This document shows, in pieces, positions 21,917 through 36,392 of a stretch of DNA of 64,000 nt. Under the pieces are notes generated by a model, which did not search any database, was not told the DNA's origin, and saw only the letters and a list, made by a program, of their open reading frames with translations. The DNA is taken from assembly GCF_019263705.2 (NCBI RefSeq), contig NZ_JADQDK010000001.1, positions 3,472,001-3,536,000 on the forward strand. The letters run 5' to 3'. Position 1 is the first letter of the stretch. Each line of letters starts with the position of its first letter. The position numbers and the translations under genes are program-made. The stretch is from Pseudonocardia abyssalis. Its GTDB lineage: Bacteria; Actinomycetota; Actinomycetes; Mycobacteriales; Pseudonocardiaceae.

Positions 21917-22714
21917 ATGGTGGGACGGTTCATGGTCAGCGGCAAGAACAGCAAGGCGGCCCGCAACGCGCGGGCCGCGGTCGTGACCCAGCGGTCGACG
22001 CCGTGGGGCCTGATCGCGGCGGTGCTCGCCGTGGTGGTGTTCGCGGGGGCCGTCTTCGGCTACGCGTTCATCCAGAACCAGGCGAACGCCGACCGCCTCT
22101 CCGCGCTCGCTCCGTTCACCCCCACGGCGGAGAACCCCGACCCGTCGACGCAGATCGAGGGCGTCCAGGTCGTCGAGTACACCGGTGGGCAGCACGTCGA
22201 TCCCGTCACGCAGGTCGCCTACACCCAGAGCCCGCCCTTCGGCGGCGCGCACGACGCGGTCTGGGCCGCGTGCAACGGCGTCGTCTACGACCAGCCGGTG
22301 CGCACCGAGAACCTCGTGCACTCCCTGGAGCACGGCGCGGTGTGGATCACCTACAACCCCGACCTGGTCTCCGGTGCCGCGCTCGACACGCTCCGCGCGA
22401 AGGTCGACGGCCAGCAGTACATGGTCATGTCGCCGTACCCCGGTATGGACTCCCCGTTCTCGCTCCAGTCCTGGGGGCACCAGCTGAAGCTCACCGACGT
22501 CGCCGACGGCCGCATCGACCAGTTCGTCGCCGCGCTGCGGGTCAACCGCAACACGCACCCCGAGCCGGGGGCCAGCTGTGAGGAGGTCGGGCCCGGCGGG
22601 TTCGTCCGCGCCGACCCGCCCCCGTTCGTCCCCGCGCCCGCCCCGGGCACGCCCGGGACGCAGCCCGAGAGCACCGCGGGCGCCGACACCGTCACCCCCG
22701 ACGCCGGATCGTGA
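21917..22714 (+). CDS. DUF3105 membrane-anchored protein
   Basis: 265 residues. After a short Lys/Arg-rich cytoplasmic end comes one membrane segment (GLIAAVLAVVVFAGAVFGYAF, roughly residues 30-50), then an exported domain. Conserved DUF3105 features are PPFGGAHDAVWAACNGVVYD and HSLEHGAVWITY. The His and Cys residues suggest metal binding, but that is inference. The C terminus is Pro-rich. The ATG at 21932 is an equally good start. It overlaps the next gene as GTGA; the two form a small operon. Confidence 0.85.
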   Translation: MVGRFMVSGKNSKAARNARAAVVTQRSTPWGLIAAVLAVVVFAGAVFGYAFIQNQANADRLSALAPFTPTAENPDPSTQIEGVQVVEYTGGQHVDPVTQVAYTQSPPFGGAHDAVWAACNGVVYDQPVRTENLVHSLEHGAVWITYNPDLVSGAALDTLRAKVDGQQYMVMSPYPGMDSPFSLQSWGHQLKLTDVADGRIDQFVAALRVNRNTHPEPGASCEEVGPGGFVRADPPPFVPAPAPGTPGTQPESTAGADTVTPDAGS

Positions 22715-27267: not shown

Positions 27268-27714
27268 GTGTTCTCCGTCGCGGGCGTCCCGGCCCATCCA
27301 CTGCTCGTGCACGCCGTCGTCGTGCTGCTCCCCCTGGCGGCGCTCGGCGCGGTCGCCGTGGCCGTGCGTCCGGTGTGGGCCCGCCCGTACGGGCTGCTCG
27401 TCGCGGCGGGGGCCCTCGGCGGCGCGGTCGCCGCGGTGGCGGCCCGGATCGCGGGCGAGCAGTTGGAGGACGCCATCGAGATCACGCCGGGCTTCGAGCC
27501 GGTGATCGACCAGCACGAGCGGTTCGGCACGCTCACCGTCCTCACGTCGTGGCCGTTCGCGGTCCTCGCCGTGGCCGCGTACCTGCTGGCCCGCCGCGAC
27601 CGCGGGCGGATCGTCGGGGTGCTGGCGGCGGTCGCCGGGGTGGTGGCCGTCGTCGCGACGGTCCTGGCCGGTCACAGCGGCGCGGCGGCGGTCTGGGGCG
27701 ACGTCGTTGGCTAG
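27268..27714 (+). CDS. DUF2231 four-helix membrane protein
   Basis: 148 residues with four hydrophobic segments. The N terminus [20 protein letters not shown] is the DUF2231 signature. The paired HP and VH histidines and the later [16 protein letters not shown] histidines resemble haem or metal ligands across the membrane, which is inference. It overlaps the start of the FkbM methyltransferase gene by a few bases. Confidence 0.87.
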
Positions 27715-28462
27715 CGGATTCGCGCGCGTGCGGGGCGTGGCCCGCTCGCTCGCGATGTACCACGGCATCCCCGGCCGGCACCGCCGGATCGTCGCCTTCT
27801 ACGGGCGGTTCCTCGGGCCGGGCGACGTCGCGTTCGACGTCGGCGCGCACGTCGGCAGCCGCGTCCGGGCGTGGCGCAAGCTCGGGGTGCGGGTCGTCGC
27901 GCTCGAACCCCAGCCCGACTGCCTGACGGTGCTGCGCCTGCTCTTCGGGCGCGACGACGACGTCGTGATCGCACCGGTCGCCGTCGGCGCGGCGGCGGGC
28001 ACGGCCCGGCTGGGGCTGTCCAGCGCCACACCCACGGTGTCGTCGATGTCGCCGGAGTGGATCGGCACGGTCGGCACCGACCGCGGCTTCGCCCGGGTGC
28101 GCTGGGACCGTTCCGTCGAGGTCCCGGTGACGACGCTGGACGCCCTGATCGCCGCCCACGGTGAGCCCGCGTTCGTCAAGATCGACGTGGAGGGGTTCGA
28201 GCTCGACGTGCTGCACGGGCTGAGCCGGCCGGTCCGGGCGCTGTCGTTCGAGTACCTGCCGCCCGCCCACGACGCCGCACTCGCCGCGCTCGACCTGGTC
28301 GACGCCCTCGGCCCGTACCGCTACAACTACTCGCCGGTCGAGACCATGACCCTCGCCTCCGAGGGGTGGCTCGACGCCGACGGCCTCCGCGCGCTGCTGG
28401 ACCGGTTCCGCCCGCTCGGCCGCTCCGGCGACGTCTATGCGCGGCTCAGCCCGGATCGCTGA
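27707..28462 (+). CDS. FkbM-family methyltransferase
   Basis: 251 residues. SAM-binding motif I reads FDVGAHVGSRVRAWRKLG, followed by VVALEPQPDCL, and the family motif FVKIDVEGFELDVLHGL is near residue 155. FkbM enzymes O-methylate sugars, polyketides or lipids. The TTG at 27707 overlaps the preceding stop; the in-frame GTG at 27728 is an alternative start. It converges on the histidine phosphatase gene, whose stop it overlaps by 17 bp, and sits at the edge of the glycolipid-like island. Confidence 0.85.
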   Translation: MASGFARVRGVARSLAMYHGIPGRHRRIVAFYGRFLGPGDVAFDVGAHVGSRVRAWRKLGVRVVALEPQPDCLTVLRLLFGRDDDVVIAPVAVGAAAGTARLGLSSATPTVSSMSPEWIGTVGTDRGFARVRWDRSVEVPVTTLDALIAAHGEPAFVKIDVEGFELDVLHGLSRPVRALSFEYLPPAHDAALAALDLVDALGPYRYNYSPVETMTLASEGWLDADGLRALLDRFRPLGRSGDVYARLSPDR

Positions 28463-29009
28463 ACGTCACCAGCCGCGGCACCCGCCCGCCGGTGTCGATC
28501 CGGCACACCCCGGCGTCGGCGAGGAACAGCCGCCACACCGCGACGTCGGCCAGGCCCAGTGCCCACGCCACCGCCGCCTTGATCGGCGAGACGTGGCTGA
28601 CGACCACGACGTCACCCCGGGCGGCGTCGGACGCCAGGTCCCGGCACGCCTCCCGGACCCGCACCCCGACGGCGGCGAGCGACTCCCCGCCCGCGGGCAC
28701 GAAGTCCGGGTCGGTCCGCCAGCGCGACCAGGTGGCGACGTCGACGTCGGCGGGGGCGGCGCCGTCGAGGGTGCCGTAGTCCATCTCGATCCAGCGCTCG
28801 TCGACCTCCACACCCGCCGGGGCGAAGGCCGCGGCGGTCGCGCGGGCCCGGCCCAGCGGGCTCGACACGACCCGTGACGGCCGCGGCAGCACCGCCGCCA
28901 GCGCCCGGGCCTGACGGCCGCCGAGGTCGGTCAGCGGCGGATCGGCACGCCCGCAGAGCAGGCCGCGTGCGTTGGCCGCGGTCTGGCCGTGGCGGACGAG
29001 GATCAGCAC
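28446..29009 (-). CDS. Histidine phosphatase superfamily protein
   Basis: 187 residues. It has the phosphohistidine motif VLILVRHGQTAANARG at the very N terminus, the Arg/Glu region around MDYGTLDG, and the second catalytic His in VVVVSHVSPIKAA. Members dephosphorylate small phosphometabolites (sugar phosphates, alpha-ribazole phosphate and others). The GTG start at 29009 overlaps the upstream membrane protein gene by 7 bp, tying it to the island. It could remove a phosphate from an island intermediate; the substrate is unknown. Confidence 0.87.
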   Translation of the reverse strand: MLILVRHGQTAANARGLLCGRADPPLTDLGGRQARALAAVLPRPSRVVSSPLGRARATAAAFAPAGVEVDERWIEMDYGTLDGAAPADVDVATWSRWRTDPDFVPAGGESLAAVGVRVREACRDLASDAARGDVVVVSHVSPIKAAVAWALGLADVAVWRLFLADAGVCRIDTGGRVPRLVTFSDPG

Positions 29010-29857
29010 GGGAGGGGCTCCGGCCGCGGCACCGGGCGCAGCAGGACGGCGAGGCCCGGCAGGCAGGCGATCATGCCCAGCACCCCGTAGACGACGGCGG
29101 TGGTGAGCCCCTGCGCGGCACCGAGCCCGGCGGCGGAGAACGCGACGGTGCCCGCCGCCTCGCGCGGTCCGAACCCCCCGACGTTGAGCGGCAGCACCAT
29201 CGCCAGCAGGGCCACCACCAGCAGCGGCAGCAGCTCGCCGACCGGCGCCGTGACGCCCGCGGCCCGCGCGGCGACGACGAACAGCACGAGGTACCCGGCC
29301 AGCGCGGTCAGCGACAGCGCGACGACCGCCAGAGCGGTGCGGGCGGTGAACCGCCGGACGTCGACGAGGAAGGGGACGAGCAGGGACCGCACCCGCGGGA
29401 CCCGGGACGCCGCCAGGAGGAGCCCCGCCCCGACGGCGAACCCGGGCAGCAGCCCGCCGAGCAGCACGGGCTGCGCGAGCAGCACCAGCAGCCCGGCGAC
29501 GACCACCACCGCCTGCCCCGCCGTCCGCTCCAGCACGACGGCGCGCAGACCCCGCCCGTCGGCGCGGCCGTGGGCGACGGCGCGGTGCACGTCGCCGAGC
29601 ACGCCCGCGGGCAGGACGGAGTTGAGCGCGACGGCCCGGTAGGTGTCGGCGACGGCCGTCGCGAACGGCAGCGCCAACCCCAGTCCGCGTGCGACCAGGC
29701 ACCAGCGACCGGCCGCGCACAGCGTGGTGAGCAGCCCGACGGCGAGCGCGGCGAGCACGGCCGGGGGGTCGATCGCGGCGAGGCCGGCGAGCACGGCGTC
29801 GGTGCCGACCCACACGGCCAGCGCGACGAGAACGGCCGCCCCGATCAGCACCCTCAC
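29003..29857 (-). CDS. LPG synthase-like (UPF0104/AglD-type) membrane protein
   Basis: 284 residues from the GTG at 29857, which overlaps the methyltransferase stop as GTGA. About seven to eight membrane segments. Family features are NSVLPAGVLGDVHRAV, the motif with VVLERTAGQAVVVV, and GGFGPREAAGTVAF near residue 215. It lacks the soluble lysyltransferase domain of MprF and corresponds to the flippase-like half. Such proteins usually sit with glycosyltransferases and are thought to move or modify polyprenyl- or phospholipid-linked intermediates. Confidence 0.85.
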   Translation of the reverse strand: MRVLIGAAVLVALAVWVGTDAVLAGLAAIDPPAVLAALAVGLLTTLCAAGRWCLVARGLGLALPFATAVADTYRAVALNSVLPAGVLGDVHRAVAHGRADGRGLRAVVLERTAGQAVVVVAGLLVLLAQPVLLGGLLPGFAVGAGLLLAASRVPRVRSLLVPFLVDVRRFTARTALAVVALSLTALAGYLVLFVVAARAAGVTAPVGELLPLLVVALLAMVLPLNVGGFGPREAAGTVAFSAAGLGAAQGLTTAVVYGVLGMIACLPGLAVLLRPVPRPEPLPC

Positions 29858-30687
29858 GACGGGACCGCCAGCACGTCGACGTGCCCGACGGTCACGCGCA
29901 GGGCCCCGGCGGCGCGCGCGACCAGCCGGCGGCGCAGGTACCGACCCGCCTCCCGGTCCAGGTCGGGCCGCTGTTCGACGGCGGCGGCGATCCAGCCGCG
30001 CAGCCACTCCTCGGCCAGCTCGGCGCTCTCCGGCCCGAGCCGCCACGGGCTGGGGCGGGTCTCGACGGCCATGCCGTGCCGGGCGAACGCCGCGGCGGCG
30101 ACGGGCCCGGCATCGGGGCCGAGCAGGGTGCGGCCGTCGACGGTCCGGCGCTGGTGGGCGTCGAACGCGGCGGCCAGTGCGGCGTCGAGCGGGTCGGGCG
30201 GGTCGATCGCGACGTCCCCGGTGACCGACAGCGCCAGCAGCGCCGCGCACCCGGCCCCCGCGCACGCGGCGGCCAGCGCGTCGACCTCCTCGGCGGTGAG
30301 CAGGTCGAGCAGCGCCGACGCCGTGACCAGCGACGTCCCGGCCAGGTCGGCCGCGCGCAGTGTCGTCAGGTCGCCTCCGACCCCCTCCGCTGACGGGGTG
30401 CCCGCGACGGCGCGCGCGAGCAGGTCGGGGTCGCGGTCGTGCAGGATCCACCGCGGCGATCCCGCGAGCCGGGGCGCGAGCCAGCGCACCATGGACCCGG
30501 TGCCGCACCCGACGTCGCGGACGACCGTCGGGGCGAGCCCGCCGACCCGCTGGGCCAGCTCGGCCGACCGGGCGTCGGCGTCGGCGGGCTCGCGCAGGGT
30601 CAGCCAGCCCGGGGTGCAGACCGGTGAGCCCGCGACGCTCAGGCGGGCGTACCGCTCCGAGCGCGGTCCAGGATCGTGATCAGGCAT
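29854..30687 (-). CDS. SAM-dependent methyltransferase (class I)
   Basis: 277 residues from the ATG at 30687 with GGAGGTGAC upstream. SAM motif I is TVVRDVGCGTGSMVRWLAPR near residue 55, followed by an acidic turn (ILHDRDPDL) and a motif IV-like region (TASALLDLLTAEEVD). It overlaps the glycosyltransferase gene by 49 bp and the next gene as GTGA, so it is tightly coupled. An RxxR-rich C terminus follows. Target unknown; within the island a sugar or lipid hydroxyl is the natural guess. Confidence 0.85.
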   Translation of the reverse strand: MPDHDPGPRSERYARLSVAGSPVCTPGWLTLREPADADARSAELAQRVGGLAPTVVRDVGCGTGSMVRWLAPRLAGSPRWILHDRDPDLLARAVAGTPSAEGVGGDLTTLRAADLAGTSLVTASALLDLLTAEEVDALAAACAGAGCAALLALSVTGDVAIDPPDPLDAALAAAFDAHQRRTVDGRTLLGPDAGPVAAAAFARHGMAVETRPSPWRLGPESAELAEEWLRGWIAAAVEQRPDLDREAGRYLRRRLVARAAGALRVTVGHVDVLAVPS

Positions 30688-31703
30688 CGGGACGTCACCT
30701 CCCACCCGGTGAGCTCGGTGCGGCGGGCCTGCGCGCCCGCGCGGAGCTCGGTGCGCAGGTCGGGCCGGTCGAACCAGCGGATCAGACCCATCGAGAGGGC
30801 CGGGACGTCGGCGGTGGGGACGAGCAGCCCGGCGCCGCCCAGCGCCGACCGGACTCCCCCGACGTCGGTGGCGAGCACCGGGATCCCGCGGGCCGACGCC
30901 TCCGTGACGACCATCCCGAAGGCCTCGACGCGGGAGGGCAGCACGAGCAGGTCGGCCGCGGCGAACGCGGCGGCGAGCGGCGCACCGACCAGCGCTCCCG
31001 GCATCCGGATCCGGCCGTCGAGCCCGTACCGGGTGATCGCCGCCCGGACGTCGGCGACGTGCGCGGGGGCGCGGCCGAGCGGTCCGACGAGGTCGCAGCT
31101 CCACGACCGGTCGGCGACGTGGGCGAGCGCCTCGACCAGCAGGTCCTGGCCCTTCGTCGGCGTCACGGAGCCGACGCACAGCAGCCGGCCCACGCCGTCG
31201 GTCCCGACCGCGGACGGGGCCGGGTCGACGCCGGGGGTGACGACGTCGACGGACCCGAGATCGTGCTTCTCGCGCAGCCGCTGCGCGGTCCACGGGCTGG
31301 TGGCGACGACGGCCGCCGCGGCGTGCAGCGTCTCGCGCTCGCGGTCCGCGAGGTCGGCGGCGCCCACCTCGTCGCCGAGCGGCAGGTGCACGAGCACGAC
31401 GATCTCCAGGCGACGCGACTGCGGCACGACGACGTCGGGGACGCCGCACGCGACGAGCCCGTCGATCAGGACCGCCGATCCGGTGGGCAGGGCCGCGAGG
31501 GTGCGCTGCAGTGCACCGCGCTCGGGGACCGACGGCCGCGGCCACCGCCCGGCGACGGCGACCTGCGCCACGGTCGCACCCGCCGCGCGCATCCCGGCGA
31601 TCACGCGCCGGTCGTAGGTGTTGCCGCCGCTGGGACGGGAGGTGTCGTCGATGTCGGCGGGGACGATCACGTGGACGGCCCCGCTCGTGCCGGCCCCGAT
31701 CAC
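30639..31703 (-). CDS. GT4-family glycosyltransferase
   Basis: 354 residues, GT-B fold. The donor-binding C-terminal half reads [20 protein letters not shown], then [20 protein letters not shown] with the EX7E motif (Glu at each end of EAFGMVVTE), and [13 protein letters not shown]. The N-terminal Gly-rich loop is [13 protein letters not shown]. It would transfer a nucleotide-activated sugar to an acceptor at the membrane face. GTG at 31703 overlaps the PTPS-like gene stop as GTGA; it overlaps the methyltransferase by 49 bp. Confidence 0.92.
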
Positions 31704-32098
31704 AGCGCGCGCTCGTAGCTCGCCCAGGCGACGTGCGACTCGTGCAGCGCGACGGTGATCCCGGCCAGTCCGCGGGCACCCTCGCCCAGCGCGCCGGAGT
31801 GGACCCGGTCGGCCAGCCGGTCGGCGACCACCTTCGCCAGGAACTCCGTGGAGGTGTTGATCCCGGCGAAGGCGGGCTCGTCGTCGAGGTTGCGGTAGTC
31901 GAGGTCGGCGAGGACCCCCTTGAGCTCGGTCGTGGCCAGCCCGATGTCGACGACGATGTTGTCGGCGTCGAGATCGCGCCTGCGGAACGTGGCGTCGACG
32001 ACGAACGTGGCGCCGTGCAGACGCTGCGCGGGCCCGAAGACCTCGCCGCGGAAGCTGTGCGCGACCATCACGTGGTCGCGGACGGTGATGCTGAACAA
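31700..32098 (-). CDS. 6-pyruvoyl-tetrahydropterin synthase-like protein with altered active site
   Basis: 132 residues from a TTG at 32098, chosen because GGAAGGGG lies just upstream and it follows the dehydrogenase stop by 28 bp; the longer frame would overlap that gene. The T-fold is recognisable in [20 protein letters not shown] and [16 protein letters not shown] and [11 protein letters not shown]. The canonical catalytic Cys before the HGH zinc motif is absent, and HGH itself reads HGA. It therefore may not make sepiapterin precursors, carboxy-pterin or preQ0 by the standard chemistry. S. coelicolor has a similar PTPS-like protein (SCO6650, from memory). Confidence 0.85.
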
Positions 32099-32126
32099 CG
32101 GTTGCCCCTTCCGTACAGCTGAGAAC

Positions 32127-33119
32127 TCAGCCGTAGACGACACGGACGCAGGGCCCGGACGGTTCACCGGAGGTGAGGCGGGTCAGGAGCCGCGGCAGGT
32201 CGTCGAAGGGCGCCGAGTCGGTGACGAGCGCGTCGTAGCGCGGGTCGGCGAGCAGGCGCAGCGCCAGCGCGAGGCGGTCGGCGTGGCTGCGGCGTCCCCG
32301 CCGGGCCGGGGCGACCATCCCGACCTGGCTGGCGCGGATGCTCAGGCGCCGCGAGTGGAAGCCCGCGCCGAGCGGGACGGTGACGGCGCGGTCGCCGTAC
32401 CAGCTCAACTCCAGCACCTCCCCCTCGACGGCGAGCAGCTCCAGGCTCCGCGCGAGCCCGGCGTCGGTGGCGCTGGCGTGCACCACGAGGTCGCGGTCCC
32501 CCGCCGCGTCCGCCGGGAGGGCGAAGCCGACGCCGAGCGCGTCGGCGACGGCGGCCCGCGCCGGGTCGAGGTCGACCAGCTCGACGCGCACACCCGGGAA
32601 CCCGGCGAGCACCGCGGCGACGCAGCACCCGACCATCCCGGCCCCGACGACGGCGATCCGGTCGCCGACCAGCGGGGCGGCGTCCCACAGGGCGTTGACC
32701 GCGGTCTCGACGGTGCCGGCCAGCACCGCACGGGCGGGCGGGACGTCGTCGGGGACGATCGTGACCGCGGTCGCCGGGACCACCCAGCGGGTCTGGTGCG
32801 GGTAGAGCCCGAACACGGTGCGTCCGAGCAGGTCCGGCGGGCCCTGCTCGACGACGCCGACGTTGAGGTAGCCGTACTTCACGGGTCCGGGGAACTCCCC
32901 GTCCTGGAACGGTGCCCGCATCGCCGCGTGCTGGCTCTGCGGCACCCCGCCGCGGAACACGAGGGTCTCCGTGCCGCGGCTGACGCCGGAGGTCAGGGTG
33001 CGCACGAGCACGTCGTCCGGGCCGGGGGCCGTCAGCGCGACGTCGCGGATCTCGCCGTGCCCCGGTTCGACGACCCAGAAGGCACGTGCCCCTGAACCGC
33101 CGGATGCACTGTGATCCAC
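32127..33119 (-). CDS. MDR-family dehydrogenase, BchC-like, lacking zinc ligands
   Basis: 330 residues from the GTG at 33119 (GAGGGGATCGG upstream). Medium-chain dehydrogenase fold with a Rossmann loop [19 protein letters not shown] near residue 175. Where zinc alcohol dehydrogenases have a Cys ligand, this protein reads [16 protein letters not shown], the SGxSxGTE motif of the bacteriochlorophyllide dehydrogenase (BchC) group, so it is probably zinc-free. It heads the minus-strand operon and is divergent from the CDP-alcohol phosphatidyltransferase. It would oxidise or reduce a carbonyl on a complex substrate. Confidence 0.85.
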
Positions 33120-33179
33120 CCGATCCCCTCTGAACTCCGACGCCTTCCGGGCCGTGTCCGATGTGTGTACACAAGCCCC

Positions 33180-33851
33180 GTGACGACCGTATCCCGGCAG
33201 CGACGCGCGCAGCAGGCGTGCGGAGCGGCGGCCCAGGTCGTCCTGCTCGCGCTGCTGACGGCGGTCGCCGGGCTCGGCGCGGCCGGTTGGGCGGCCGGGC
33301 TCGGGTTCGCCGCCGGGCTCTGGGCCCTGCTGGACACCGCCGCCCGGCGCGCGGGCACCGACACCCTCGGACCGGCCGACGTGGTCACGCTCGCCCGGGC
33401 CGCACTGGTCGGTGGTGTGCTGGCACTGGTGGTCCACGGGGCGGGGCCGGTCCCGATCGTCGTCGTCGCGTCCGTCGCGCTCGTCCTCGACGCCGTCGAC
33501 GGGCGGGTGGCCCGGCGCACCGGCACGGTCTCGGCGCTGGGTGCGCGGTTCGACATGGAGGTCGACGCGGTACTGCTGCTGGTGCTGTCCGTGCACGTGG
33601 CGACGCTGCTCGGTCCGTGGGTGCTGGCGATCGGGCTGATGCGCTACGCGTACGTCGCCGCGGGGCGGGTGCTGGGGTGGCTGCGGGGGTCCCTGCCGGT
33701 CCGGTACTCGGCGAAGGTCGTGGCCGCGGTGCAGGGGATCGTGCTGGTGGCGGCCGTCGCCGGGGCGCCGGGCTGGACGGTCGCGGTGTCGCTGGCCCTG
33801 CTCGTGTGGTCCTTCGGGCAGAGCGTGGTGTTCCTGTGGCACGCGCGGTGA
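33180..33851 (+). CDS. CDP-alcohol phosphatidyltransferase family protein
   Basis: 223 residues from the GTG at 33180, with about six membrane segments. The complete family signature is present: LDAVDGRVAR, eight residues, then G-ARF-D-MEV-D, i.e. D-x2-DG-x2-AR-x8-G-x3-D-x3-D with the four metal/catalytic Asp residues. The enzyme would displace CMP from a CDP-alcohol (CDP-diacylglycerol or similar) with an alcohol acceptor. The acceptor is unknown. Its stop overlaps the next gene as GTGA. Confidence 0.92.
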   Translation: MTTVSRQRRAQQACGAAAQVVLLALLTAVAGLGAAGWAAGLGFAAGLWALLDTAARRAGTDTLGPADVVTLARAALVGGVLALVVHGAGPVPIVVVASVALVLDAVDGRVARRTGTVSALGARFDMEVDAVLLLVLSVHVATLLGPWVLAIGLMRYAYVAAGRVLGWLRGSLPVRYSAKVVAAVQGIVLVAAVAGAPGWTVAVSLALLVWSFGQSVVFLWHAR

Positions 33852-35332
33852 GGACCGCCGCCGCCGCACTCGTCGTCCTCGTCGCGCTGGTGGTCCCACG
33901 GGACGCCCTCGGGGTGCTGCGGCTGCCCGTCGAGGGGCTGCTCCTCGTCGCGCTGCTGCTCCTGCTGCCCGCCCGGGCGGTCCGGCCCGCCGCCACCGTC
34001 GCCGGGATCGGTCTGGGGGTCGTCGCCGTCGTCGCCGTGCTCGACGCCGGGTTCCGCGCCGTGCTGGCCCGCCCGTTCGACCCCCTGCTCGACGCCACCT
34101 CGGTCGGGGCGGGCGTCGAGTTCGCCGCGGGGTCGGCGGGCCCGGTCGCGGCGGTCGGGGCGGTGCTGGGGGCCGTCGTCGTCGCGATCGCGGTGGTCGT
34201 CGGGGTCGCGCTGGCCGTCCGGCACCTGGCCCGGCTCGCCGTCGCGCACCGGCGCACCGCCGCCCGCGCGGTCGCCGTACTGGCGCCGGTCTGGGTGGTC
34301 GCCGCGCTCGTCGGCGCCCCGGTCGCCTCCGCGGGCGCGGCACTGCTCGTCCGCGACCACGCCGTCCAGGTCCGCGACGGGCTCGCCGACGCCGAGACGT
34401 TCGCCGCGGAGCTCGCCGCCGACCCCTACCGCGACACCGACGGGCTCCTCACCGCGCTCGAGGGCAAGGACGTCGTCGTCGCGTTCGTCGAGAGCTACGG
34501 CCGCGACGCGGTCGACCTGGTCGGCCCGCACCTCGACGCCGGAACCCGCGACCTCGACGCCGCCGGGTTCGCCACGCGCAGCGGCTTCCTCACCTCACCG
34601 GTCGTCGGCGGCAACAGCTGGCTGGCCCACGCGACGTTCCTCTCGGGCCTGCGCGTCGACGACCAGCGTCGCTACGCCGCACTCGTCGACAGCGACCGGA
34701 TGACGCTGAGCAGCGCGTTCGGCGACGCCGGCTGGCGGACGGTCGGGGTCATGCCCGGCACGACCCGCGAGTGGCCCGAGGCCGGCTTCTACGGCTACGA
34801 CACCGTCCACGACTACCCCGCGCTCGGCTACCGCGGCCCCGACCACGGCTGGGCGACCGTGCCCGACCAGTACACCCTCGCCGCCTTCCAGCGCGCCGAG
34901 CGCGACACCCCGCACGCGCCGCTGATGGCCGAGATCGCGCTGGTCAGCAGCCACGCGCCGTGGGCGTACGTGCCGCCCGTGCTGGACTGGACGGCCGTCG
35001 GCGACGGGTCGGTGTACCACGAGGTGGCGCCGGGCCCCGCGGAGTACGCGGGCTCGATCGCCTACTCGCTCGGCAGCGTCGTCTCCTGGGTGCGGGCCTA
35101 CGGCGACGACGACCTCGTGCTCCTCGTCCTCGGCGACCACCAGCCGTCCGCGGCCGTCACCGGCGGGGGCGCGACCGCGGACGTCCCGGTCTCCGTGGTC
35201 GCCCGCGACCCCGCGGTGCTCGACCGGATCGCCTCCTGGGGCTGGACACCCGGCCTGCGCCCCGCCCCGCACGCCCCGGTCTGGCCGATGGAGGGATTCC
35301 GGGACCGCTTCCTGGCCGCGTTCACCGGGTAG
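33848..35332 (+). CDS. Membrane-anchored sulfatase/phosphotransferase (LtaS-like)
   Basis: 494 residues from the GTG at 33848. The first 190 residues hold four or five membrane segments; the rest is an exported alkaline-phosphatase-fold domain. Metal and nucleophile regions are visible: VVVAFVESYGRDAV, GGNSWLAHATFLSGLR (Ser/Thr nucleophile region), and VLLVLGDHQPS. This architecture matches LTA synthase and phosphoethanolamine/phosphoglycerol transferases, which move a phospho-alcohol head group from a phospholipid to a glycan outside the cell. It is coupled to the CDP-alcohol transferase gene. Confidence 0.88.
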   Translation: MRTAAAALVVLVALVVPRDALGVLRLPVEGLLLVALLLLLPARAVRPAATVAGIGLGVVAVVAVLDAGFRAVLARPFDPLLDATSVGAGVEFAAGSAGPVAAVGAVLGAVVVAIAVVVGVALAVRHLARLAVAHRRTAARAVAVLAPVWVVAALVGAPVASAGAALLVRDHAVQVRDGLADAETFAAELAADPYRDTDGLLTALEGKDVVVAFVESYGRDAVDLVGPHLDAGTRDLDAAGFATRSGFLTSPVVGGNSWLAHATFLSGLRVDDQRRYAALVDSDRMTLSSAFGDAGWRTVGVMPGTTREWPEAGFYGYDTVHDYPALGYRGPDHGWATVPDQYTLAAFQRAERDTPHAPLMAEIALVSSHAPWAYVPPVLDWTAVGDGSVYHEVAPGPAEYAGSIAYSLGSVVSWVRAYGDDDLVLLVLGDHQPSAAVTGGGATADVPVSVVARDPAVLDRIASWGWTPGLRPAPHAPVWPMEGFRDRFLAAFTG

Positions 35333-35345
35333 GAAGGATGGGCAC

Positions 35346-36392
35346 GTGGCCGAACGGGAGCTGTCGTGGGCGCGACTCAACCGGGCGCTGCTGGCCCGGC
35401 AGCTGCTGCTGGAGCGCGCCGACCTGACGCCGGTCGCGGCCGTCGAGCGGGTGGGCGGGTTGCAGACGCAGTACAGCCCGTCGGCCTACGTCGGGCTGTG
35501 GTCGCGGCTCGCCGGGTTCCGCCGCGCCGACCTCACCGACGCCCTGACCCGCGGCCGGATCATCCAGGGCTGGGTGATGCGCTGCACGATCCACATGGTC
35601 TCCGCCGCCGACCACCCGCCGATGACCGAGGCCGTGCGCGCGCACCGCAGGCTGCTGTGGAGCCGCGATCCCCGCAGCACCGGCATCGACATGGCGGCCG
35701 CCGCCGACACCGTCCGGGACCTGCTCGCCGGCGGACCGCTGACCCAGGCGGCGCTCGTCGAGGGGCTGCTCGCGGCGGGGTTCACGAAGGACGCGTTCGC
35801 CGGGGTGCAGCTCTGGATCGACCTGGTGCGCGTGCCACCCGCCGGCACATGGGAGCGCCCGCGCGCGCACGTCTACGGCCTCGCGAAGGCCCCCCGCACC
35901 CCCGTCGACCCCGCCGCGGCCGAGGAGCTGCTCGCCCGCCGCTACCTCCGCGGCTACGGGCCCGCCACGCCCGGTGACCTCGGCCGCTACGCCGGCTGGA
36001 CGATCACGCACACGAAGACCGTGCTCGACCGCCTCGTACTGCGCACCGCCCGCGACCCCGACGGCACCCTGCTCGTCGACCTGCCGCGCGCCCCGCTCCC
36101 GGACGCCGACACCCCCGCGCCGGTGCGGTTCCTCGGCAACTTCGACGGCGCGCTGCTCCTCGGCCACGCCACCCGCGCCCGCCTCGTCCCGGCCGAGCAC
36201 CGGCACGAGGTGTTCCACGTCCGCAAGCCGCAGTCGATGCCGACGTTCCTGGTGGACGGTCGGGTGGCGGGCACCTGGCGGTTCACCGACGGGCGCGTGG
36301 AGACCGCGCCGTTCGAGCCCCTGCCGCCCGCCGCCCGCGACGAGGTCGACGCGGAGGCGGCCCGGCTCACCGCGTTCCACCTCGACGGCTGA
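35346..36392 (+). CDS. Winged-helix protein of the AlkZ (HTH_42) family
   Basis: 348 residues, GTG start with GGAAGGATGGGC upstream. It matches the HTH_42 winged-helix family that includes the interstrand-crosslink DNA glycosylases AlkZ/AlkX. The catalytic QxQ-type motif is visible as Gln40 and Gln42 in VGGLQTQYSPSAY. Later family sequence includes VMRCTIHMVSAADH and FLGNFDGALLLGH. In Streptomyces such enzymes protect against their own DNA-damaging products, but many HTH_42 proteins have no known substrate. It follows the sulfatase by 13 bp. Confidence 0.86.
   Translation: MAERELSWARLNRALLARQLLLERADLTPVAAVERVGGLQTQYSPSAYVGLWSRLAGFRRADLTDALTRGRIIQGWVMRCTIHMVSAADHPPMTEAVRAHRRLLWSRDPRSTGIDMAAAADTVRDLLAGGPLTQAALVEGLLAAGFTKDAFAGVQLWIDLVRVPPAGTWERPRAHVYGLAKAPRTPVDPAAAEELLARRYLRGYGPATPGDLGRYAGWTITHTKTVLDRLVLRTARDPDGTLLVDLPRAPLPDADTPAPVRFLGNFDGALLLGHATRARLVPAEHRHEVFHVRKPQSMPTFLVDGRVAGTWRFTDGRVETAPFEPLPPAARDEVDAEAARLTAFHLDG

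Follow-up and report, generated by a model that had tools for sequence, protein, structure and literature searches.

A widespread gene cluster around a PTPS-IV protein in Pseudonocardia abyssalis: a possible pathway to a GTP-derived, glycosylated compound of the membrane or envelope

Introduction

The 6-pyruvoyl-tetrahydropterin synthase (PTPS)-like proteins of COG0720 comprise a subfamily, PTPS-IV, which is named in the pertinent part of PMC5041015 and to which the corresponding section of PMC5445326 assigns the motif FGPAQ. According to the same section, PTPS-IV genes neighbour members of PF00925 and PF01872, so that the subfamily and these two neighbours are already known in print. A second described system is represented by the early riboflavin steps of the archaeal ArfB and bacterial BrbF type, for which the relevant part of PMC9478397 presents BrbF, a bacterial creatininase-family protein, as a proven formamidase for a formylamino-pyrimidine originating from guanosine triphosphate (GTP). 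Here we describe a gene island of Pseudonocardia abyssalis, located within its 6.3-Mb genome in a stretch of 64,000 nucleotides (contig NZ_JADQDK010000001.1, positions 3,472,001 to 3,536,000; hereafter the window, whose own numbering is used throughout), which encodes a PTPS-IV protein together with a dehydrogenase (DEH), a GT4 glycosyltransferase, methyltransferases and several membrane proteins. Parts of this island recur in distant phyla, and we regard the chances as about even that it belongs to a widespread PTPS-IV pathway, in which a GTP-derived pyrimidine or pterin would be glycosylated, methylated and delivered to the membrane or envelope.

Conservation of the Gene Cluster across Genomes

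The gene content of related loci was compared at three levels, and since the compared species and loci are related to each other, the counts given here do not represent independent trials. In a sample of 396 genomes of the phylum, 87 contained a PTPS match (E 0.001), and among the 29 best loci kept apart from the window's own, 27 encode DEH, PTPS and GT4 inside 3.4 kb, down to a PTPS identity of 33-38%. The two exceptions are L028, which ends with its contig and holds GT4 without DEH, and L037, in which PTPS alone was found. Within the window's own family (80 genomes), PTPS-IV is present in 38 genomes and DEH in 39, all 38 having both, while the additional genome, G472, carries a distant DEH. 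The 38 family loci other than the window's own display 19 layouts, distinguished by gene order, orientation or content; they include PTPS in 36, GT4 in 36, the UPF0104 membrane protein in 33, a cytidine diphosphate (CDP)-alcohol phosphatidyltransferase in 32, a class I methyltransferase (MT) in 31, a creatininase-family protein in 25, GTP cyclohydrolase II (GCHII) in 24, a RibD_C reductase in 22, an LtaS-like membrane phosphotransferase (SUL) in 18, an FkbM-family methyltransferase in 4 and a histidine phosphatase in 3. Because the genes stay together while their order changes from locus to locus, this retained company is a mark of functional linkage.

At the widest level, a DEH-anchored scan of genome contigs was ranked by likeness to the Rubrobacter-type DEH, and the best 80 of at least 585 relatives fall into Pseudomonadota (66), Actinomycetota (9), Gemmatimonadota (2), Thermomicrobiota (1), Bacteroidota (1) and Spirochaetota (1), the last having a reduced core where its contig stops. 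In 59 of these 80 loci DEH is flanked by 6 kb or more in both directions, and here the genes within 6 kb of it were counted; this well-flanked set omits the window and the PTPS-only loci (L066, L068, L069, L071-L073, L075, L076, L078), and one best family was scored per frame, leaving the second domain of a fused frame uncounted (e.g. the CDP-alcohol transferase in L132). The core is formed by PTPS (56 of 59), GT4 (54), MT (50) and RibD_C (49), followed by the CDP-alcohol transferase (28), GCHII (21), FkbM (21), UPF0104 (17), cytochrome b561 (15), SUL (13), an MdoH-like GT2 (12), an OtnK-like protein (7), a creatininase-family protein (6), a PlsC-like acyltransferase (6), YceI (5) and FolB (3). 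An earlier note on this DNA had let its idea of a single pathway depend on co-occurrence beyond close relatives; the gene set does recur across distant phyla, and this co-occurrence supports one conserved pathway with a membrane-facing part. A four-carbon sugar-acid kinase-like gene, presumably OtnK-like, was additionally seen after MT, either directly or one to two open reading frames further on, in nine mostly Roseomonas-type loci (L118, L120, L129, L131, L142, L143, L145, L150, L166).

The PTPS-IV Protein and the Dehydrogenase

The PTPS gene of the window (31700-32098, minus strand, TTG start; PF01242, 80.5 bits) encodes a T-fold protein with the FGPAQ signature, by which the PTPS-like label of the earlier note can be refined to PTPS-IV. 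The motif of PTPS-I, including QueD of queuosine synthesis, is CxxxHGH, in place of which the window protein has no cysteine and HGA for HGH, and its score against the NCBIfam QueD profile is 37 bits (cut-off 89.25); the motifs of PTPS-II (CxxxxxHGH) and PTPS-III (ExxHGH) are likewise absent. Its closest solved structure by sequence is SCO6650 (PDB 3d7j, E=4e-71), listed as an "uncharacterized protein", and its closest organism-named homologue stems from Pseudonocardia (92%). The structure of SCO6650, which we take to be devoid of both zinc and PTPS activity, is reportedly covered by a published work. Databases name the cluster proteins 6-pyruvoyl-tetrahydropterin synthase or 6-carboxytetrahydropterin synthase despite the missing catalytic cysteine.

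A motif survey of 149 PTPS-family proteins from the compared loci comprised 139 DEH-linked proteins and ten from loci without DEH. The former show FGPAQ with HGA in 116 cases, FGPA with HGH in 19 (of the Rubrobacter and Thermomicrobia type), FGPA with HGA in two and FGSA with HGH in one (L094), one further protein being truncated; the latter are seven of the Cys-HGH type, two with HGY and one truncated. Because of this distribution, PTPS-IV is, as judged from its motifs, a subfamily that lacks the catalytic cysteine and, in most members, also one zinc histidine. The T-fold and one invariant glutamate, presumably the pterin anchor, are retained. Elsewhere in the window genome, a second and distant PTPS-family protein of 125 amino acids (G000:C1:6099648-6099962; L002, L080) differs from PTPS-IV, and the gene downstream of it is one that we take to be methyltransferase-like.

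DEH (32127-33119, minus strand) is a dehydrogenase of the medium-chain dehydrogenase/reductase (MDR) type whose modelled fold resembles that of polyol dehydrogenases; the models of DEH and SUL were compared with known folds by VIA-align. No Pfam family matched DEH above any cut-off. Its best curated match, the NCBIfam bacteriochlorophyllide dehydrogenase BchC, was reached at 43 bits, far under the equivalog cut-off of 291; DEH is not a BchC. At the CGTD stretch, 36 of 37 sequences read xSxGTE, and the two majority-cysteine columns of the alignment are both situated outside this motif. DEH was accordingly rejected as a zinc-dependent MDR alcohol dehydrogenase, the catalytic zinc cysteine being missing.

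A GTP-Derived Start

Relatives of the island, among them a genome of the same genus, add GCHII, a creatininase-family protein and a RibD-type reductase to the core. In this genome (G442, locus L177), FkbM, the CDP-alcohol transferase, SUL, RibD_C, DEH, GCHII, creatininase, UPF0104, MT, GT4 and PTPS are assembled in ~9.5 kb. The creatininase-family and RibD_C domains are fused in two Gemmatimonadota loci (L099 and L102), GT4 and MT share one frame in L099, and GCHII and RibD_C do so in L192, whose DEH is distant and in which PTPS-IV is absent. Because these three early genes recur in the islands of relatives and two of them are fused, GTP is most likely the starting compound of the pathway. The published trend of PTPS-IV to neighbour GCHII and RibD_C, which is no strict criterion, is followed by these relatives and is not seen in the window.

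Outside the island, the window genome holds 7 RibA-domain matches, 12 RibD_C matches and 1 creatininase-family match, and the RibD_C match at 3.27 Mb shares 50% identity with its counterpart in L053; judging by these similarities, it is possible that the first three steps are supplied in trans. The seven RibA-domain matches (loci L004, L006, L007) include several RibBA-like paralogs, some of which match the RibA domain in part only, adjoined by genes which we assume to be flavin-reductase-like.

The GCHII enzymes of the cluster vary at the position of Escherichia coli Tyr105. A methionine (20 loci) or histidine (16) at this position is accompanied by creatininase in 36 of 36 loci, a tyrosine in 5 of 29, and the leucine of L104 in none, L126 having been omitted from the count since the motif is absent. 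This link between residue and creatininase is suggestive, and a study of SCO6655 is said to have found FAPy as the product and a Tyr-to-Met exchange.

The Late Membrane and Envelope Module

The CDP-alcohol phosphatidyltransferase (33180-33851, plus strand; PF01066, 54.7 bits) is identified as such by its catalytic motif DxxDGxxARx8GxxxDxxxD, which is invariant in 14 sequences. It is followed on the same strand by SUL (33848-35332), a membrane phosphotransferase for which fold comparison of the model yields LtaS/EptA folds among the top matches, indicating a catalytic fold of the LtaS type; a sequence search of the PDB gave no significant relative, an enzyme of lipoteichoic acid synthesis appearing only at E=0.66. 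Ser257 in the motif GGxSWL is invariant in 14 of 14 SUL sequences, as are residues of the metal-binding type (E, D, H). Both proteins are encoded in one frame in six loci (L054, L055, L132, L177, L185, L200). A flippase-type membrane protein of the LPG_synthase_TM/UPF0104 family (29003-29857, minus strand; PF03706, 89.4 bits) joins them, and in the well-flanked loci UPF0104 is found together with the CDP-alcohol transferase in 17 of 17 cases.

The CDP-alcohol transferase and the MdoH-like GT2 occur within 6 kb of DEH in 28 and 12 of the 59 loci, respectively, and never jointly. Moreover, the CDP-alcohol transferase/SUL module is missing from Rubrobacter-type loci. The pair, proposed earlier as part of the pathway, is hence a common partner and no fixed component: it constitutes an exchangeable module. 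The MdoH-like GT2 stands beside DEH in many proteobacterial loci (L104, L111, L116, L122 and others), and in L111, L122, L155 and L158 it is accompanied by d29, a protein without Pfam match (tested in L122).

Proposed Pathway and Competing Explanations

In the proposed pathway, GTP would be opened by the GCHII-family enzyme, formate would be removed by the creatininase-family formamidase, for which BrbF provides the precedent (PMC9478397), and the ribosyl chain would be converted to a ribityl polyol by the RibD_C reductase; in P. abyssalis these three steps would have to come from outside the island. In loci of the window type only, the histidine phosphatase might then remove the 5'-phosphate. 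DEH would subsequently oxidise the side chain, and PTPS-IV may bind the heterocycle and assist its rearrangement or closure, yielding a unit of the pterin or pyrimidine type. Glycosylation would be brought about by GT4 and methylation by MT and FkbM, the latter probably acting as an O-methylase of the sugar. Finally, the CDP-alcohol transferase would link a phosphatidyl (or phospho-alcohol) moiety to this unit, the UPF0104 protein would move the lipid-linked product across the membrane, and the LtaS/EptA-type enzyme would transfer a phospho-group outside, with the MdoH-like GT2 or the PlsC-like acyltransferase replacing the CDP module elsewhere.

Several points weigh against this proposal. It is built on co-occurrence, fusions, motifs and predicted folds, from which every reaction, the order of the steps and the lipid link are deduced; the best 80 DEH loci are not independent samples, and PTPS and DEH lie ~129 kb apart in genome G407. 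Neither GCHII nor creatininase nor RibD_C genes were detected in the window between positions 22001 and 44000, and the single creatininase-family match of the genome, being located elsewhere, may serve another role. The association of the GCHII residue with creatininase comes down to essentially one clade with 2 independent tree pairs, and together with the five Tyr-type loci that also carry creatininase this led us to reject a strict rule by which GCHII without Tyr105 would need a formamidase. FolB was discarded as proof of pterin chemistry as well, since 10 of 11 Rubrobacter-type genomes have no FolB besides the cluster-linked copy, which probably represents the folate gene. As to the late steps, UPF0104 occurs without the CDP-alcohol transferase or SUL in 8 of 70 UPF0104-bearing loci (L040, L057, L099, L174, L184, L189, L191, L195), L057 and L099 being incomplete loci that are cut short; the CDP-alcohol transferase and the MdoH-like GT2 are both contained in two longer loci (L109, L126); and among the 31 well-flanked loci in which no CDP-alcohol transferase was scored, 13 possess neither the MdoH-like GT2 nor the acyltransferase.

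These 13 loci are consistent with a different explanation, according to which the product is a soluble or secreted GTP-derived glycoside (a pterin, pyrimidine or flavin-like cofactor, a pigment or a signal), the CDP-alcohol transferase, the flippase-type protein and the LtaS-like enzyme forming a separate envelope unit in the neighbourhood. Pterin glycosides are known compounds, and in Rubrobacter-type, Thermomicrobiota and Roseomonas-type loci the core and RibD_C do occur without the CDP-alcohol transferase, SUL or UPF0104. However, Actinomycetota, Pseudomonadota and one locus of Gemmatimonadota encode the CDP-alcohol transferase close to DEH, and 32 of 38 family loci retain it although their gene order has changed. 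The other 18 of the 31 loci carry another membrane or envelope enzyme, namely the MdoH-like GT2 (12) or the PlsC-like acyltransferase (6), and a soluble product is thus somewhat unlikely.

A pathway for a lipid or glycan head group, with the PTPS-like protein and DEH converting a sugar or lipid intermediate and without any GTP-derived unit, would agree with the envelope character of most window genes and with the lack of any GTP-pathway gene in the window island; a PTPS-IV protein without catalytic cysteine and, mostly, without one zinc ligand would moreover not require a pterin substrate. Nonetheless, the recurrence of GCHII, creatininase-family and RibD_C genes in such islands, including one of the same genus, and the creatininase-RibD_C fusion make this explanation improbable, and the purely lipid- or glycan-assembling island with an odd PTPS envisaged by the earlier note gives way to one pointing to a GTP-derived heterocycle. 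We know of no place for GT4, MT, FkbM, the CDP-alcohol transferase or SUL in the pathways of coenzyme F420 or riboflavin. A cluster for either of these is therefore very improbable, even though early steps are common to flavin and F420 precursors and an unpublished remark in the relevant part of PMC5041015 has PTPS-IV acting in archaeal F420 synthesis, since 75 of the 80 family genomes have CofH/FbiC above the cut-off and the cluster, present in 38 of 80, does not follow it.

The Island in Pseudonocardia abyssalis

All eight genes described by the earlier note are present at the positions it gives, as tightly packed open reading frames of the families named, with start codons chosen among several candidates. 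Besides those discussed above, the minus strand encodes GT4 (30639-31703; PF13692, 89.7 bits), MT, a class I S-adenosylmethionine-dependent methyltransferase (29854-30687; PF13649, 27.6 bits at a cut-off of 27), and a branch 1 histidine phosphatase (28446-29009; PF00300, 154.2 bits; NCBIfam CobC 101 bits, under its cut-off). Of the six same-strand junctions, one is a gap of 28 bp and five are overlaps (4, 49, 4, 7 and 4 bp), and three of the six display GTGA. The boundary of the island had been drawn one gene short, as the FkbM-family methyltransferase (27707-28462, plus strand, starting at 27707 with TTG or at 27728; PF05050, 56.8 bits), which is tail to tail with the phosphatase gene, their ends overlapping, joins the cluster elsewhere.

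The phosphatase itself, previously counted among the pathway genes, is not part of the shared set and constitutes a lineage-specific, local addition: two of its three family loci exhibit the window layout, the third (L192) is without PTPS-IV, and no further locus was found among the first 121 with a profile built from one sequence. The two arms of the island are separated by a divergent intergenic region of 60 bp (33120-33179), which contains the perfect palindrome TGTGTACACA (33164-33173), a single occurrence in the genome. A conserved operator at this site was rejected, as the 38 family loci show no perfect palindrome of 10 bp containing four or more A/T within the stretch of 200 bp lying upstream of the DEH match. 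Beyond SUL, an AlkZ-like gene (35346-36392) starts on the same strand after 13 bp; it was dismissed as a cluster member, given that tblastn matched only the Rubrobacter-type locus L074 and Pfam names one in L056, without any pattern.

Hints on the Biological Role

Of 24 proteobacterial genomes, 11 encode cytochrome b561 at a distance of up to 6 kb from DEH (L100, L103, L104, L111, L127, L128, L133, L155, L163, L164, L170), as opposed to 0.21 expected from their b561 density, the 24 being a chosen, non-random draw of related genomes from the 66 proteobacterial loci. A further hint comes from Streptomyces coelicolor, for which the relevant part of PMC3610822 gives log2 values for SCO6652 of 0.8, 4.3 and 4.1 at 24, 48 and 72 h relative to young mycelium, a 17- to 20-fold rise in aerial and sporulating mycelium. 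SCO6652 should be the cluster methyltransferase MT. This assignment rests on gene numbering, because SCO6650 is PTPS-IV, SCO6655 is called GCHII in the pertinent part of PMC2853524, and in the family f5, probably Streptomyces, 11 of 13 loci place exactly four scored genes between PTPS and GCHII (GT4, MT, UPF0104 and creatininase), the other two (L047, L049) having RibD_C in addition. On account of the b561 and YceI neighbours and the upregulation of SCO6652, the product might be a redox- or light-active cofactor bound to the membrane at its outer face, with a GTP-derived, glycosylated and methylated head group joined to a membrane lipid or to glucan, the kind of anchor (phosphatidyl, acyl or glucan) depending on the lineage, a specific proposal that we consider doubtful.

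Significance and Comparison with Known Systems

About a dozen gene families, parts of which remain neighbours in Actinomycetota, Pseudomonadota, Gemmatimonadota, Thermomicrobiota, Bacteroidota and Spirochaetota, imply that the product must be useful, and a lipid-linked GTP-derived heterocycle, if true, would be a new kind of membrane molecule. The question is testable in S. coelicolor, where the PTPS-IV protein SCO6650 is present. In the open-access literature, we found nothing on the cluster as a whole, on its fusions and late modules, or on its product.

With the PTPS-IV of COG0720 described in parts of PMC5041015 and PMC5445326, the island shares FGPAQ and the PTPS family, and its relatives share the PF00925 and PF01872 neighbours named in the latter, in contrast to the window island, which has neither GCHII nor RibD_C. 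The section of PMC5445326 concerned makes no mention of DEH, GT4, MT, FkbM, UPF0104, the CDP-alcohol transferase, SUL, creatininase, fusions or late modules.

SUL resembles the LtaS, EptA and GacH phosphotransferases in its N-terminal helices, its C-terminal domain of the alkaline phosphatase superfamily and its top fold matches. It differs from LtaS, LtaP, GacH and Ept in sequence (~10-16% identity) and in its partner, the CDP-alcohol transferase. The nucleophile of LtaS is a threonine, whereas SUL has the invariant Ser257 at what we expect to be the nucleophile position.

The ArfB- and BrbF-type riboflavin steps, as presented in the respective part of PMC9478397, are mirrored in those relatives that hold GTP cyclohydrolase, creatininase-family and RibD-type genes side by side; this early trio is encoded with the core in relatives including the same genus and is absent from the window island. 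No lumazine synthase was noted among the tracked families of the cluster loci, no search having been aimed at it. To these riboflavin-type steps the cluster adds PTPS-IV, DEH, GT4 and methyltransferases.

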